This document shows positions 16,466 to 48,334 of a DNA stretch of 64,000 nucleotides, piece by piece (the stretch's first letter is position 1; each line of letters opens with the position of its first letter). Origin of the DNA: Ceratorhiza oryzae-sativae (Eukaryota; Basidiomycota; Agaricomycetes; Cantharellales; Ceratobasidiaceae). The stretch is from NCBI GenBank assembly GCA_030998015.1, contig JARWMV010000015.1, positions 62,001 through 126,000 on the forward strand, in the 5' to 3' direction. The position numbers and the translations under genes are program-made. The notes under the pieces are model-generated. The model saw nothing but the letters and a program-made list of their open reading frames with translations, searched no databases and was not told the DNA's origin.

Positions 16466-17142
16466 TGTTATGACCCACCTAGCAGACATAACCTAACAAC
16501 CGAATATTGTACAGATTTATGGCATTTTTCCCAAAGCAGAACAAACCATAAACAGGATCACATGATCTCGGCGCTTACCCAATGATTAAGCGCCAGTGGT
16601 TACCCTGAACTTGCTCCAGCATTTCTCTCCCATGTTACTTGGAGTGAGGAGCGAGTTGTCATGTGACCTCGGCACTTACTCAGCGATCAAGTGCCGGTGG
16701 TTACCCTGAACTCGCTCCAGCATTTCTCTCCCATGTTACTTGGAGTGAGGAGTGAGTTGTCATGTGACCTTGGCGCTTATCCAGTGATTAAGCGCTGGGT
16801 GCTTAAGTCCAAAAGTCACATGACCCTCGGACCTCACGCGGCTCTATAAGATTCGGAGCCGCACAAACTTAAGACAAACAATTACCTAACCCATAGTACT
16901 GTACATAACCTACACCTACTGCGGAGTGTGCTTAGATAATATGTCCGCAGCCACCGCAGCCACAGGTATATATAAGGAGGATAAAGCAAGACTGGACGCC
17001 TCAGCTTGCTTTATCTCATCAACCACCATAGACCATAGCAAACACTGTAACTAGAACACTCAATACATACTGCATAGCACCAAACCATCAACGCAGCCAC
17101 TACTTAAGTGCTCCACCAGGGAGCCTCCAGAGGGTCACGACA
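16466..17142 (+). repeat. 5' LTR of element B
   Basis: 677 bases, TGTTATGACC...GGGTCACGACA. Contains two copies of a ~101-bp tandem unit. Each unit has a GGCGCTTA...TAAGCGCC inverted repeat, a GCTCC...GGAGC inverted repeat and a TCACGTGA-like palindrome. A TATA box is at 16967-16975. Confidence 0.92.
16967..16975 (+). promoter_or_regulatory. TATA box of element B LTR
   Basis: TATATATAA, 36 bases before AGCTTGCTTTAT (17003-17014), the segment complementary to the primer site. The same spacing holds in element A, which supports transcription starting there. Confidence 0.7.
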
Positions 17143-26419: not shown

Positions 26420-27197
26420 TGTTATGACCCACCTAGCAGACATAACCTAACAACTGAATATTGTACAGATTTATGGCATTTTTCCCGAAGCGGAACAAAC
26501 CATAAACAGGATCATGTGATCTCGGCACTTACCCAATGATTAAGCGCCAGTGGTTACCCTGAACTCACTCCAGCATTTCTCTCCCATGTTACTTGGAGCA
26601 AGGAGCAAGTTGTCACGTGACCTCGGCGCTTACCCAACGATTAAGTGCCAGTGGTTACCCTGAACTAGCTCCAGCATTTCTCTCCCATGTTACTTGGAGC
26701 GAGGAGCGAGTTGTCACATGACCTCGGCGCTTACTCAGCAATCAAGCGCTGGTGGTTACCCTGAACTCACTCCAGCATTTCTCTCCCATGTTACTTGGAG
26801 CGAGGAGCGAGTTGTCACGTGACCTTGGCGCTTATCCAGCGATTAAGCGCCAGGTGCTTAAGTCCAAAAGTCACATGACCCTCAGACCTCGCGTGGCTCT
26901 ATAAGATTTGGAGCTGCACAAACTTAAGACAAATAATTACCTAACCCATAGTACTGTACATAACCTACACCTACTGCGGAGTGTGCTTAGATAATACGTC
27001 CACAGCCACCACAGCCACAGGTATATATAAGGAGGATAAAGCAAGACTGGACGCCTCAGCTTGCTTTATCTTGTCAACCACCATAGACCATAGCAAACAC
27101 TGTAACTAGAACACTCAATACATACTGCATAGCACCAAACCGTCAACGCAGCCACTACTTAAGTGCTCCACCAGGGAGCCTCCAGAGGGTCACAACA
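26420..27197 (+). repeat. 3' LTR of element B
   Basis: 778 bases, one 101-bp tandem unit longer than the 5' LTR. Other differences are mainly C/T and G/A at CpG sites. Ends GGGTCACAACA before the ATGAT duplication. Confidence 0.92.
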
Positions 27198-30051: not shown

Positions 30052-31021
30052 TATTGCAATATGAGTCATGTAGTTATTGAATCATGTATAAGACAAGTCA
30101 GCAAGCAAGTCAAGTGACTGTGATATGACTTACTGTAACTAGTCACTGGTAGTATGAGCATAGTTCATGTAGTGACTTGGACAGTCCTTCTCTCAAGTAT
30201 ATAAGGCCACCTTTGGGCCTTGCAGTTCCTCATCCTTGTCGTGACCCTCTGGAGGCTCCCTTGTGGAGCACTTAAGTAGTGGCTGCGTTGACAGTTTGGT
30301 GCTATGCAGTATGTATTGAGTGTTCTAGTTACAGTGTTTGCTATGGTCTATGGTGGTTGACAAGATAAAGCAAGCTGAGGCATCCAGTCTTGCTTTATCC
30401 TCCTTATATATACCTGTGGCTGCGGTGGCTGCGGACATATTATCTAAGCACACTCCGCAGTAGGTGTAGGTTATGTACAGTACTATGGGTTAGGTAATTG
30501 TTTGTCTTAAGTTTGTGCGGCTCCGAATCTTATAGAGCTGCATGAGGTCCGAGGGTCATGTGACCTTTTTGGACTTAAGCACCTGGCGCTTAATCGCTGA
30601 ATAAGCGCCGAGGTCACGTGACAACTCGCTCCTCGCTCCAGGTAACATGGGAGAGAAACGCTGGAGCGAGTTCAGGGTAACCACCGGCGCTTAATCGTTG
30701 GGTAAGCGCCGAGATCACGTGACAACTCGCTCCTCGCTCCAGGTAACATGGGAGAGAAACGCTGGAGCGAGTTCAGGGTAACCACCGGCGCTTAATTGTT
30801 AGGTAAGCGCCGAGATCACGTGATCCTGTTTATGGTTTGTTCCGCTTCGGGAAAAATGCCATAAATCTGTACAATATTTGGTTGTTAGGTTATGTCTGCT
30901 AGGCGGGTCATAACAATCCTCTGTTCACACCTTTTATCTTCTGTCCTGTGTAATCCTCCTTGTAACTTAATACACCATTTATCTCATCTATTAACTGCAC
31001 TATATATACATTATTTCTATA
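30052..31021. repeat. Short unclassified insertion 2 (itself interrupted)
   Basis: About 290 bases once the nested solo LTR (30237-30915) and one target copy are removed. Flanked by CAACA at 30047-30051 and 31022-31026. Starts TATTGCAATATGAG, ends ATTATTTCTATA like insertion 1, and has a TATATAAGG box at 30198-30206. Resembles a small LTR; class not established. Confidence 0.5.
30237..30915 (-). repeat. Solo LTR of element B family
   Basis: 679 bases, reverse complement of the element B LTR, with two tandem 101-bp units. Perfect 5-bp target duplication ATCCT (30232-30236 and 30916-30920). No internal region remains. Confidence 0.93.
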
Positions 31022-44594: not shown

Positions 44595-47500
44595 TCATGG
44601 GAAGAGTAGGTCCGACCATACCAGGTTACCGATCTCCTCTGCAGTCGCTCGTTCCTTCGGGTCAGTTCGCCAGCAACGATGCATAGCGGCAATCATAACG
44701 TATGCCCGAGGGGAGACGGGCTTCTTTTCCAGTTCCGAAATATTGGGGGTCAGTTTCTCTTCACTGACGGCTTTAATGACAGCTATGGTAGACCGAATCT
44801 CGCGGAACGGAATGTCGCCCGTGATTATTTCCTAGGAAAGATTAGTACATCATTGGCCCCGCTGTTAAACTCTTTCTTACGAGCATGGTCTGCACAATGA
44901 GTCAATAAATTGAACAACAAGAATCATTAGAAGTAAATTCCGAACGAGGTACCTACCATGCCAACCGCATACATATCTCCCTCTTTCGAGATCTCAGCTC
45001 CTTCGAGATATAACTCTGGGGCCTGTATGGATAACCGGTTAGTCTCAAAAATAACAAAGAGTAAACAACACGTTCCATCCAGCGGAATGTGCCGCCAGCC
45101 GGATCGGTTTCACTGAATTGCAAAGTTTTGTCGTGCATAACAGTGAGTCCAAAGTCGGTCAACTTGAGGTTACCATCAGGGCCCATGAGCAGATTGTCCT
45201 GCCATAGCTAAGTCGTCTTCAATCGAACACTAGAAGCAAGGCCAACACTTACTCCTTTTATATCTCCGTGAATCTGATCACCCAAGGTAAGAGCGGTCTA
45301 GCTTAATATTTAAAATCATTGTACGTACCACATTCCGATGGTGCAAATAACTGATTACTGCAACAAGCTGTTCGCACTGCGAAGAATGAATCAAAATCGC
45401 AAGTGGAATACACTGTAACCCTTACCATAGCATAAGGATCCATCGAAGGATTGTTCTTCAAAACAGCCTTGACGCTGCCACCTTCCATCCACGGAGATAC
45501 CATTGCTAGCCGACCGCGAAACATCGCCAGTCCGGATAGCTCCAAAACATTTGGGTGTTTAAGCTTGGCCCAAGTGCTTAATTCCCGAGCAGTATGCTAG
45601 AAATGGAAGTTGAGTAACTTGCAACAAAAACACTGGTCTAGCTACTTTGGCATATTTCTCATCGGCCTGGGTGATGCATTTTATAGCAAACAAGCTACCT
45701 CCTGGCTTGGTCCCAAGATAGATATTGCCTTGCCCGCCCGTGGCAGTTGGGTAGTCAGGAGTCTGCCACTTCGTCAATTCAGCTGTGAGGTCAGCAATAC
45801 CGGCGTGCTTAGTCAAGTAGGCCACCATGTCGGAAACAGCCTGTGCAAATGTAGTCAGTCAGTACTAGGAAAAACTCGAGTTCTTACGAGATTCGATGGA
45901 ATATGGATTGGCTTGCGATAGACCGGGTGCGTGCGAAGAAACTGACAGCGCCATGAATATATGCCCAATATAGAAGGAACGAACGATGGAACTTACATCC
46001 TAGAAAAGAGTTTGGCTAATGATCGGATGGTGTACTGGCTCTGGCCCACCTGCAAAATTTCGCAGCATTAGGATTTCCGAGTATATGCTGCAATGATAGG
46101 CTTACCTCCTAGGGGTTATTTGCACAGTCAAAGTATGGGATCATTCTCACCGCAATAAGACGTACCATCTATTCGAGTACGTGTATATAGCGCATATAAT
46201 CAATTTAATAAATCGTACTCACTTCCTGCATATATTAACGTGGCAATCATGCACTTCAAATCAGCACCACTATTTTTTCGGGTTACTCACGGACTATATA
46301 TGTGAGGAGCCGGCATCCTCAGCCAGCCGCCTACGCACCGATGGTAAGTAGGCTTACCGACTAGTTAAGATAAAGCTCAGCCGTGGCTTAGACGCTGTAG
46401 GGGTTTGGCAACTTACGTCCTAGAAAAAAAATCAATCAACCAGATTCGAGAAGAATCGGGGAGGCCTCACAAGCTATATATAGATTATTTTATGGTATCG
46501 GCTATGGTAAGCGATTGAGCATGGCCAGGCTATATCCAAACATACATCCTACGAAATGAAAAGATAAGTTCCAGTCACTCTGGACATAATTTGTAGAAAT
46601 TCTGCTTACTTGCTGAATGAGGGCATCGGATTGTAAGGTCGAATCCGTCAGTCCCACAATCAATCATTGCGCGCAAATAGTATCACCTTCTGCGAGTCGG
46701 CACAACGTCAATTGTCATTTTTAATCTTACTTAAAAGCCAAACAGACTTACAAACTATCGGCGAATTGCCAGGTAAATCAATAGCACAGCAGGAAGTTCG
46801 AAGCTAACTTACGAACTACCGCATGTGTGATATGATTAATCCTACTTCAGCACTACTGGTCCGTTAATCCAAAGGTAGCTCACAAACTAGCGCCTGTCAT
46901 CAACAAATAAATCTAAAAATGAGGGCAATTCACATACAAGCTAGGTTGAAGCAACAAATTGAACGTAAGAGCTCGAGGAGTCGATAGAATACCGGCTTAC
47001 ATCCTAGAACGATTCGTCAGATGAGAAAACAGGGCAACTTGGCCGCTTACACGCTGAGAACACGAAGAGCGCTTTTTATCAGTGCTCATTCGGGTCGCCC
47101 ATAAATTCCCTTACTTTCTATATGACAAGACTTAAATCCAACTCGGTAAGCGAGCATCGAACCACTCACATCCTGGAACCTCCATCGATTGAGCGAGTTA
47201 ATTGTTAGAAAAGACCAAAGCGACTCACATCCTGTACACAGTGTTTTCGTTTAGTCATGAATAGACAGGCAACAAAAATTACTTACCCACTGTTGGAATG
47301 ACATTGCATATAAGCAGGGTGTTTCAAGAGCTCACAAGGAACCAGATACTCACGAGCTAATGATGGCAGAAATCCTTCATGAGATGCTTGTATGCCTCCA
47401 ACAGCGAGTGTACTTACCATCTGTAAAAAAGCGGGACATGTCCCTTGAGCGAAATGTAAGAAGAACTATGGGACAACACATACTGTCTATCGTATCCATC

Positions 47501-48334
47501 AAGGGGTCAGCAGCGTCAGATTAAGGGCCTGTCCAACAGTGGGTCGACTTACGCCCTAAAACAAAGTAAGCCATGGGATTTCGATAAGATTCAGCGCACC
47601 CAAGGGCCACTTACTTTCTATAGAATAACAAGCCGTACACCCTGCCGTTTGAGTAGACAAACAGACCAGAATCATTCACAATACCTACCGGCTATACAAA
47701 AAAGTATTTGAACACGTCGCCGGCCAAGGAAATAAATGACACTCACACGCTACAGATGTCACCGATGGACTGTTGGAAACGCGCATGATCAAGCCGGCTA
47801 GAACACGTACCCTCTTTCGTACGTAACGTTAGTCAAGATAAATATGACGAATGGCTCCCACGTACATCCTAAATTTACAGATGGTATTTGCTATGAGGAT
47901 CAAGGATCTCCAAGTACTCACGACCTGAAAGCCATCAAAAACAACCATACATATGTCAAACAGGTCGCGAGTCGAGTGAGCTAGGGCAGCTCACAAGCTA
48001 AAGTCATGTGATGTTAATTTGAAAAGATAGCCACATGTGCAGTGGGAGACATGCGACGCACCCATTCTCCAAGGATAGGTCGAATATTGCGCTGGAGTAA
48101 TGTTACAAGTCTATCAAAGCGCATAAATAGCCGTTAAGCGGATAGAATACATACGTTTCCTTTTACCGATTCATGCCCCTATGGAGAAAAGCATTGCGAG
48201 TAGTGGGGCAGCTGTCTGGGCAGCCTTCTTACCTCCTCCTATACAATATCAATCAGTCAACCATACAGCCAGAAGCATGAGGATGAGCCAAAAATCACCA
48301 CAAATCGTCCAAAATAAAACTTGTTCCAATCCAT
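44595..48334 (-). CDS. TKL-like protein kinase with 32 single-codon exons
   Basis: About 45 exons in 3.74 kb. 5' exons: 48334 to about 48302 (ATG; donor GTGGTG or GTGATT), 48238-48233, 48178-48155, 48091-48062. Then 32 exons of exactly 3 nt (47997 to 45997, see next entry). Then 45941-45888, 45840-45646, 45596-45426, 45376-45329, 45273-45253, 45198-45070, 45022-44957, 44889-44881, 44831-44595. All phases join, giving about 372 aa. Kinase landmarks: ATGGQGNIYLGT (P-loop), FAIKCI (Lys), RELSTWAKLKHPN (alpha-C Glu), HGDIKGDN (catalytic loop with HGD for HRD), DFG, GGTFRWM, APEL, and a CWRTDPKERA C-lobe motif. Active-site residues are present, so it may be catalytic. Ahead of the kinase, FLRTHPVYRKPIHIPSNL and AVSDMVAYLTKHAGI form a linker. 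Substrate unknown. Confidence 0.85.
45997..47997 (-). other. Array of 32 consecutive 3-nt microexons
   Basis: Minus strand, each with an AG acceptor, three bases, then a GT donor (mostly GTAAGN/GTGAGN). Lowest coordinate of each triplet in transcript order: 47995, 47922, 47866, 47811, 47747, 47689, 47615, 47553, 47484, 47418, 47354, 47287, 47229, 47170, 47115, 47051, 47001, 46938, 46884, 46813, 46752, 46687, 46610, 46546, 46471, 46417, 46358, 46291, 46223, 46166, 46106, 45997. Introns are 47-74 bp (the last is about 106 bp and holds an AG|GT at 46050/46049). Six triplets are GAT; none is a stop. Both flanking exons are in phase 0, so each microexon adds one amino acid and any can be skipped in frame. 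Read from sequence; splicing not proven. Confidence 0.8.

Follow-up and report, generated by a model that had tools for sequence, protein, structure and literature searches.

Results

The kinase locus and its array of three-base units

We analyzed a protein kinase gene on the minus strand of a 64,000-nucleotide (nt) stretch of the Ceratorhiza oryzae-sativae genome (contig JARWMV010000015.1, positions 62,001 to 126,000 of the forward strand), hereafter called the window. Ahead of the kinase domain, an arrangement of AG acceptor, three bases and GT donor is found in 32 consecutive units, and the sequence suggests that the triplets are likely one-codon, phase-0 exons that form a changing region before the kinase. 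From the upstream end, the features of the locus are the following.

48334, minus strand: possible start ATG (by eye, tentative)
48167..48238, minus strand: possible small upstream exons, GAGGAG (48238-48233) and GGGCATGAATCG (48178-48167) (by eye, tentative)
48062..48091, minus strand: 30-nt exon RNIRPILGEW ahead of the array, read from the sequence; its acceptor is ambiguous and a 49-nt version is possible
45997..47997, minus strand: array of 32 putative one-codon (3-nt) exons, reading LVDRRPKGTMLWDDKRDLFFFKQDLDSSEMED in order (pattern script and reading by eye)
First bases of the 32 triplets, minus strand: 47997, 47924, 47868, 47813, 47749, 47691, 47617, 47555, 47486, 47420, 47356, 47289, 47231, 47172, 47117, 47053, 47003, 46940, 46886, 46815, 46754, 46689, 46612, 46548, 46473, 46419, 46360, 46293, 46225, 46168, 46108, 45999
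46000..46105, minus strand: 106-nt intron divided into 56 + 50 nt by a zero-nt AG/GT point; counted from the F[FL]xxHP exon, the position matches that in the sister gene described below
45888..45941, minus strand: F[FL]xxHP exon, FLRTHPVYRKPIHIPSNL, the first exon with clear protein similarity outside the genome
44595..45840, minus strand: kinase domain in 8 exons (45840-45646, 45596-45426, 45376-45329, 45273-45253, 45198-45072, 45015-44957, 44889-44881 and 44831-44595, the last with the stop), from the joined-exon translation

The first-pass annotation had described a run of 32 AG-NNN-GT units between 47997 and 45997, and our script recovered it. With the loose pattern AG-NNN-GTNNG on the minus strand, 34 sites were found in the array stretch; the count of 32 was obtained by removing three decoys (47641, 46746 and 46221) and adding the unit at 46689, whose donor, GTGATA, falls outside the pattern and was recognized by reading the sequence. 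The decoy at 47641 (AG-GGT-GT) lies 24 nt ahead of a real unit and is probably unused, because its use leaves an intron of 21 nt. The spacing of 47-74 bp given in the annotation fits introns of 47-74 nt and fails for the single 106-nt intron; taken together, the 33 introns have a median length of 61 nt. Donors, acceptors and lengths resemble those of ordinary fungal introns. A branch-point match of at least 4/5 was present in 32 of the 33 introns (shuffled mean 25.5, maximum 31), and a full match, which is weak evidence, in 7 (shuffled mean 5.0; 119/500 shuffles as high).

As annotated, no stop codon occurs among the 32 triplets, two of which, at 47420 and 46168, are ATG. The frame is anchored by the downstream exon, which begins TTT CTT CGC and reads FLRTHPVYRKP, so that each triplet corresponds to one phase-0 codon, in agreement with the in-phase exon proposed earlier; similarity to Ceratobasidium proteins is clear from this exon on. 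Retention of a single array intron would in most cases cause a frameshift or introduce a stop. Tandem duplication visible within the array was considered and rejected, as the intron cores resembled one another no more than shuffled ones (mean similarity of 6.68 vs 6.58) and Tandem Repeats Finder lists no repeat there.

Comparison with chance

In 300 dinucleotide shuffles of the 2.4-kb array stretch, the loose pattern appeared 1.9 times on average and six times at most, vs the 34 sites observed, and the longest chain was 21 units, vs at most 3 in 1000 shuffles. The proposed shuffled-sequence check of chance runs thus went in favor of the array. When exon lengths of 0-12 nt were scanned in the same stretch, only length 3 formed an array, the others giving chains of no more than 2. 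Chains of length-3 exons reached at most 2 in the rest of the window and in 15 other 10-kb stretches of the genome, on both strands. Together with the sister loci of the same architecture presented below, these statistics strongly support the triplets as real exons, with conservation among the copies of the locus as a weaker support.

Four copies of the window locus

The assembly (48.8 Mb in 253 contigs) holds four copies of the window locus, on contigs C15 (the window), C39, C61 and C234, with 99.2-99.9% identity over about 10 kb. The array differences among them are all intronic, 15 substituted and 7 gapped among 1892 intron columns; none of 96 exon columns and none of 132 splice-dinucleotide columns varies. 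Upstream of the array, the block at 48238-48233 reads GAGGAG in the window and GAG in the three other copies, and the change lies exactly between acceptor and donor; this GAG block is a possible further one-codon unit. Genes with arrays were also seen near contig ends, on C251 (10-12 kb) and C250 (20-27 kb), and within about 3 kb of the contig end on C234 and C39; they possibly lie near chromosome ends.

A sister gene with a 68-nt repeat

A sister gene came to light on C47 and C12 through pattern sites spaced by multiples of 68 nt. Its plan matches that of the window gene, with codon exons followed by FFHEHPGRKKPIHI and the kinase exons, and the core of its array is a 68-nt tandem repeat made of a 65-nt intron and a triplet. 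In a genome search that scored only the best candidates, this unit turned up four times, always ahead of a copy of the sister gene. The four cores read as follows.

C47, 27 codons: DDAIDDILDDLWWTAAATADDWDWDWL
C251, 17 codons: DWIWARAARWAARLARD
C12a (C12:96 kb), 10 codons: WFLIDDIDRD
C12b (C12:44 kb), 15 codons: HRDRWIIWRDAWIIW

Variation was concentrated in the codons. Among 63 full units, minor bases occupied 102 of 189 codon cells vs 22 of 4095 intron cells, and 49 of the 63 introns were identical to the letter; for C47 and C12a alone, the contrast gave p = 6e-56 in a Fisher test. Within single arrays, pi was 0.59-0.69 in the codons and 0.004-0.04 in the introns, being highest for the introns of C12a. 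The 69 core codons comprised GAT (18), TGG (13), GCT (12), ATT (9), CGG (6), CTG (5), ACT (2), and TTT, CAT, CGT and CGA once each, so the first six, for Asp, Trp, Ala, Ile, Arg and Leu, account for 63. There were 11 distinct codons, vs at least 22 in each of 20000 independent shuffles of the three columns, indicating that whole codons are reused. No stop was present, where column shuffles expect about 1.5 and 19% of them have none, and identical codons stood side by side 12 times vs 11.3 after shuffling, which is no excess.

Outside the cores, the comparison covered 17 single-copy codon exons of the sister gene. Its four copies diverge by 2.1-2.8% in their downstream flanks, and all of them carry a zero-nt AG/GT point that splits an intron into 60 + 58 nt; such a point between the last two codons is common to the window and sister genes. 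On C47, the donor of one 68-nt unit is interrupted by a short element with inverted ends (CTCGGCCAAAA), flanked by TA duplications and recognized by eye (about 1338-1513 of the C47 stretch analyzed), which lengthens the intron of that unit.

A third locus and other relatives

A third kinase locus, at C250:20001-27500 and C66:66001-72500, contains codon units in a tandem repeat of 107 nt, with 33 and 25 anchors, respectively, and triplets such as CGA, CTC, GGA and TAT. Downstream of the repeat there are single-copy codon exons, identical in both contigs, and after them, by eye, FLSKHP, the kinase and a second kinase domain. The codons adjoining the F[FL]xxHP exon read SSEMED in the window gene, LAEIEA in the sister gene and DAAVEH at the third locus, and their summed similarity over the three loci had p = 0.001-0.004; this comparison used loose-pattern sites only and left aside other C250 sites (e.g., 4558 and 4628) and, in C47, a possible 6-nt exon.

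In a genome search with a relative from Ceratobasidium, the ten copies of the three array groups filled the top 10 of the 30 rows. No array was found in 3.5 kb at the next-best family member, on C37, or near nine weaker kinase relatives (runs of at least 5; in 10-kb surroundings, runs of at least 4); C251:683703, C23:106574 and most other rows lay outside this check. Among database proteins, P0024, from an uninterrupted reading frame, reads ELNEIAK-FFESHP, with similar residues ahead of F[FL]xxHP, and a search with its N-terminus returned itself and two Ceratobasidium AG-I kinases. In BLAST, ten alignments started before the F exon (residues 11-47) and six exactly at it, and the double-kinase proteins P0002 and P0003 aligned on through the window array codons. 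An origin of the array as the split tail of an upstream kinase was not supported, because 7-16% of trials with shuffled codons scored equally well: 32/200 shuffles against the best of 122 proteins and 140/2000 against a profile of 96 kinase tails. For single proteins, p was 0.05-0.29 relative to shuffled codons.

Genome-wide census of the pattern

Counts of fixed patterns gave a weak census, which arrays with other splice letters escape. TAG-NNN-GTAAGT occurs at 188 places in the genome, 24 of them in the four copies of the window gene, and no further pairs on one strand within 2 kb were seen with this pattern, which is blind to the sister gene and picks up just two sites, 3-4 kb from each other, at the third locus. 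CAG-NNN-GTGAGT occurs at 564 places; the clusters among the first 100 listed (C1-C17) belong to the sister and window genes. YAGGATGTRAG was found at 121 places, 100 of them among the matches listed. Among the matches listed, close same-strand AG-NNN-GT pairs were also noted at C3:499143/499471, C15:269153/269259, C8:340715/341708, C24:112874/113494 and C40:108262/109231, those on C3 and C15 with CAG-NNN-GTGAGT and the others with YAGGATGTRAG, and these are possible further arrays.

The kinase domain and a neighboring repeat

The joined kinase exons are open for 288 codons plus the stop, and all seven introns are GT-AG. A Pfam scan of the 289-residue kinase part, typed with APEL where canonical splicing gives MEQL, matched Pkinase (3.5e-43, 148.3 bits, cut-off 31.7) and PK_Tyr_Ser-Thr (9.8e-36, 123.8 bits, cut-off 23.1); in this part of the protein, only kinase-type families were found, so it is not of the NACHT-ankyrin type. 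HGDIKGDN, DFG and AIK, which we take to be the catalytic kinase motifs, were recognized by eye. The best database relatives are Ceratobasidium proteins, reaching 69% identity across 85% of the query. At 45198-45015 on the minus strand, no canonical donor follows RWM, and the GT-AG junction gives RWMEQLYLEG, not RWMAPELYLEG. The Ceratobasidium AG-Ba relative P0001 reads RWMEKLYLDG at the same motif, and thus the APE motif may truly be altered in both. Elsewhere in the window, a similar 101-bp tandem repeat unit lies in both orientations at 16563-16795, 26512-26853 and 30576-30823.

Discussion

A probable peptide assembled from one-codon exons

The array in the window gene is probably a set of 32 spliced one-codon exons that encodes an evolving peptide before the kinase. 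The spliceosome would join the 32 blocks by removing one short intron at a time, as the ordinary size of these introns suggests, giving a peptide of about 32 residues ahead of the F[FL]xxHP segment and the kinase. As each unit consists of a single codon and a short intron, unequal exchange or skipping would change one residue and leave the frame intact. We infer that all the units are spliced and translated, and that the peptide is under selection and has a function. The window array would be old, its introns being mutually unlike and its codons the same in four copies. The sister array would have been partly expanded recently as a 68-nt tandem repeat with a near-invariant intron, with whole codons shuffled from a small set; exchange between units may homogenize the introns while selection maintains codon diversity. 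Most simply, the sister core may be a region under selection for change.

As a tentative proposal, somewhat short of an even chance in our judgment, the invariant intron could serve as a frame-neutral carrier of single codons, with recombination between tandem units adding, dropping and shuffling codons from a small set, and so producing a fast-evolving recognition peptide of this kinase family, one residue per exon. That the peptide might act as the recognition segment of a signaling kinase is a guess by analogy with fungal immune-type receptors.

Several observations weigh against this interpretation. Letter-identical introns amount to only 3 of 9 in C12a. Downstream of the sister cores, 2 of 39 bases vary in 13 single-copy codons vs 50 of 1062 intron bases, so these codons evolve no slower than introns, and the upstream flank is variable too, at 5 of 12 codon bases and at 38 of 354 intron columns free of gaps. 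At the third locus, 11 of 32 parsed units in C250 and 12 of 22 in C66 hold 0-2 nt between acceptor and donor, from which the array appears decayed or poorly assembled; its match in the family search is the second kinase domain, about 1.4 kb further on, and the likeness of the codons next to the F exon is mainly between the window and sister genes (p 0.004-0.008), pairs with the third locus giving p 0.03-0.14. Conservation among the four window copies is weak evidence, since about one exon change was expected where none was seen in 96 columns, and the likeness of the joined codons to other kinases or kinase tails is not significant. The recognition role is drawn by analogy. Finally, the inclusion of the triplets, even of a single one, is read from the DNA letters, and the spliced N-terminus with the array codons has no database homologue at E <= 10.

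Relation to known systems

The first-pass annotation knew of no comparable run, and this has to be corrected. In the passages seen of four papers, Tuber melanosporum NACHT-ankyrin (NANK) genes are described as having codon-sized mini-exons, their number given as multiple, tens or dozens, that undergo alternative splicing (PMC3689799, PMC4986451, PMC10197012, PMC9815663); the source cited for the 3-bp mini-exons is Iotti et al. 2012, known here via citing papers. Tens of 3-bp exons in a row are likewise found here, with 32 in the window gene and 10-27 core plus 17 single-copy ones in the sister gene, as read from their sequences. As far as those passages go, the systems share many codon-sized exons, an expanded fungal family and possible one-residue variation without loss of frame. 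They differ in that the Tuber genes belong to Ascomycota and encode a NACHT-ankyrin receptor with a C-terminal recognition region and alternative splicing, whereas the genes described here belong to Basidiomycota and encode a kinase, with the array ahead of it and known from DNA.

Stwintrons and recursive splicing resemble the array in their packed splice sites and stepwise removal of neighboring introns, and one zero-nt AG/GT point is present here. A recursive exon has to begin with a donor; among the 32 window triplets, GTC alone starts with GT, so this mode of splicing was rejected for them and, unlike recursive exons, they would stay in the messenger RNA (mRNA). Introners share with the 68-nt arrays the many identical short introns. 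A dispersed introner was nevertheless rejected, as the 68-nt unit is tandem and, in the search scoring the best candidates, confined to four arrays of one gene group, and the window introns are no more alike than shuffled ones.

Near-identical repeats that differ at fixed positions are also known from TAL effectors. Fungal NLR repeats have, in the passages seen, the same properties and change in number (PMC9815663). Compared with these repeat receptors, the constant part of the sister repeat is an intron and the variable part a single codon, so the protein would carry variable residues only. Among Basidiomycetes, the P450 genes of Phanerochaete chrysosporium have small exons between small introns, the shortest being 6 bp vs the 3 nt found in arrays here, and the parts of that report seen mention no arrays (PMC1184071). 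In the literature searched, which left most subscription journals outside, neither kinases nor Basidiomycota were found described with such arrays; as far as that search reaches, what is new is the host gene, its phylum and the combination of invariant introns with variable codons.

Alternative explanations

Alternative splicing could be the main function of the array, yielding mRNAs with different codon subsets, as cited for the Tuber NACHT-ankyrin genes. Every skip would preserve the frame, the identical donors and acceptors of the 68-nt arrays would leave the spliceosome without means to tell units apart, and Tuber, as far as the passages seen describe it, offers a precedent. On the other hand, skipping requires introns of about 110 nt or more, vs the array median of 61 nt, and the copies already differ in their DNA, so splicing need not supply the diversity. 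We consider this alternative possible but doubtful.

It is unlikely that the array is real but mostly bypassed, with transcription or translation starting inside or after it, for example at the ATG at 47420 or 46168, so that only the last codons reach the protein. The clear similarity to other species starting at the F[FL]xxHP exon is in line with such a bypass, as are three Ceratobasidium entries, P0015, P0032 and P0037, marked partial and on short contigs, which start exactly at this exon; their models, however, may have missed 3-nt exons or reached a contig edge. Moreover, the hypervariable codons of the sister gene would be purposeless if untranslated, and the codons adjoining the F exon are alike in the window and sister genes.

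An introner-like element could instead have inserted copies of one intron between the codons of a contiguous old exon. The identity of 49 of the 63 introns around differing codons, and the uninterrupted P0024 with similar residues before F[FL]xxHP, would agree with such insertion. This origin seems improbable, as the 68-nt unit, by the scored genome search, is undispersed, unlike introners; the core lengths of 27, 17, 10 and 15 codons differ though the downstream flanks differ by only 2-3%; and dozens of introns would have had to land at intervals of exactly 3 nt.

That the whole stretch is a 2-kb intron or untranslated leader with decoy sites, whose triplets never enter the mRNA, had been the alternative in the first-pass annotation. 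The last two reservations listed above, on triplet inclusion and on the N-terminus, speak for it. It is now disfavored and appears very improbable: the sites number 34 vs 1.9, the chain reaches 21 vs at most 3 at size 3 only, the same layout recurs in two sister loci, and decoys would leave unexplained why the variation of the sister gene falls precisely between AG and GT.

A process that directs mutations to the triplet is hardly credible in spite of the contrast in pi within arrays and of adjacent codons being no more alike than shuffled, as the 11 codons, with six making up 63 of 69, are far below what independent base changes give and argue for whole-codon reuse by exchange plus selection.

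Implications

If the units are spliced as they appear, the window gene would require 33 removals in a row with only three bases separating neighboring introns, and would thus test intron definition cleanly. Variable codons set among near-invariant introns reverse the usual pattern; the introns may be the repeat that drives recombination, and the codons the variety. The Tuber mini-exons are suggested not to be a one-off, and gene models that leave out 3-nt exons may lack the variable protein ends. If true, the one-codon exon interpretation would offer a testable route to evolving a receptor one residue at a time, and with the codon arrays the fungus could alter a section of what may be a sensor protein by single amino acids.

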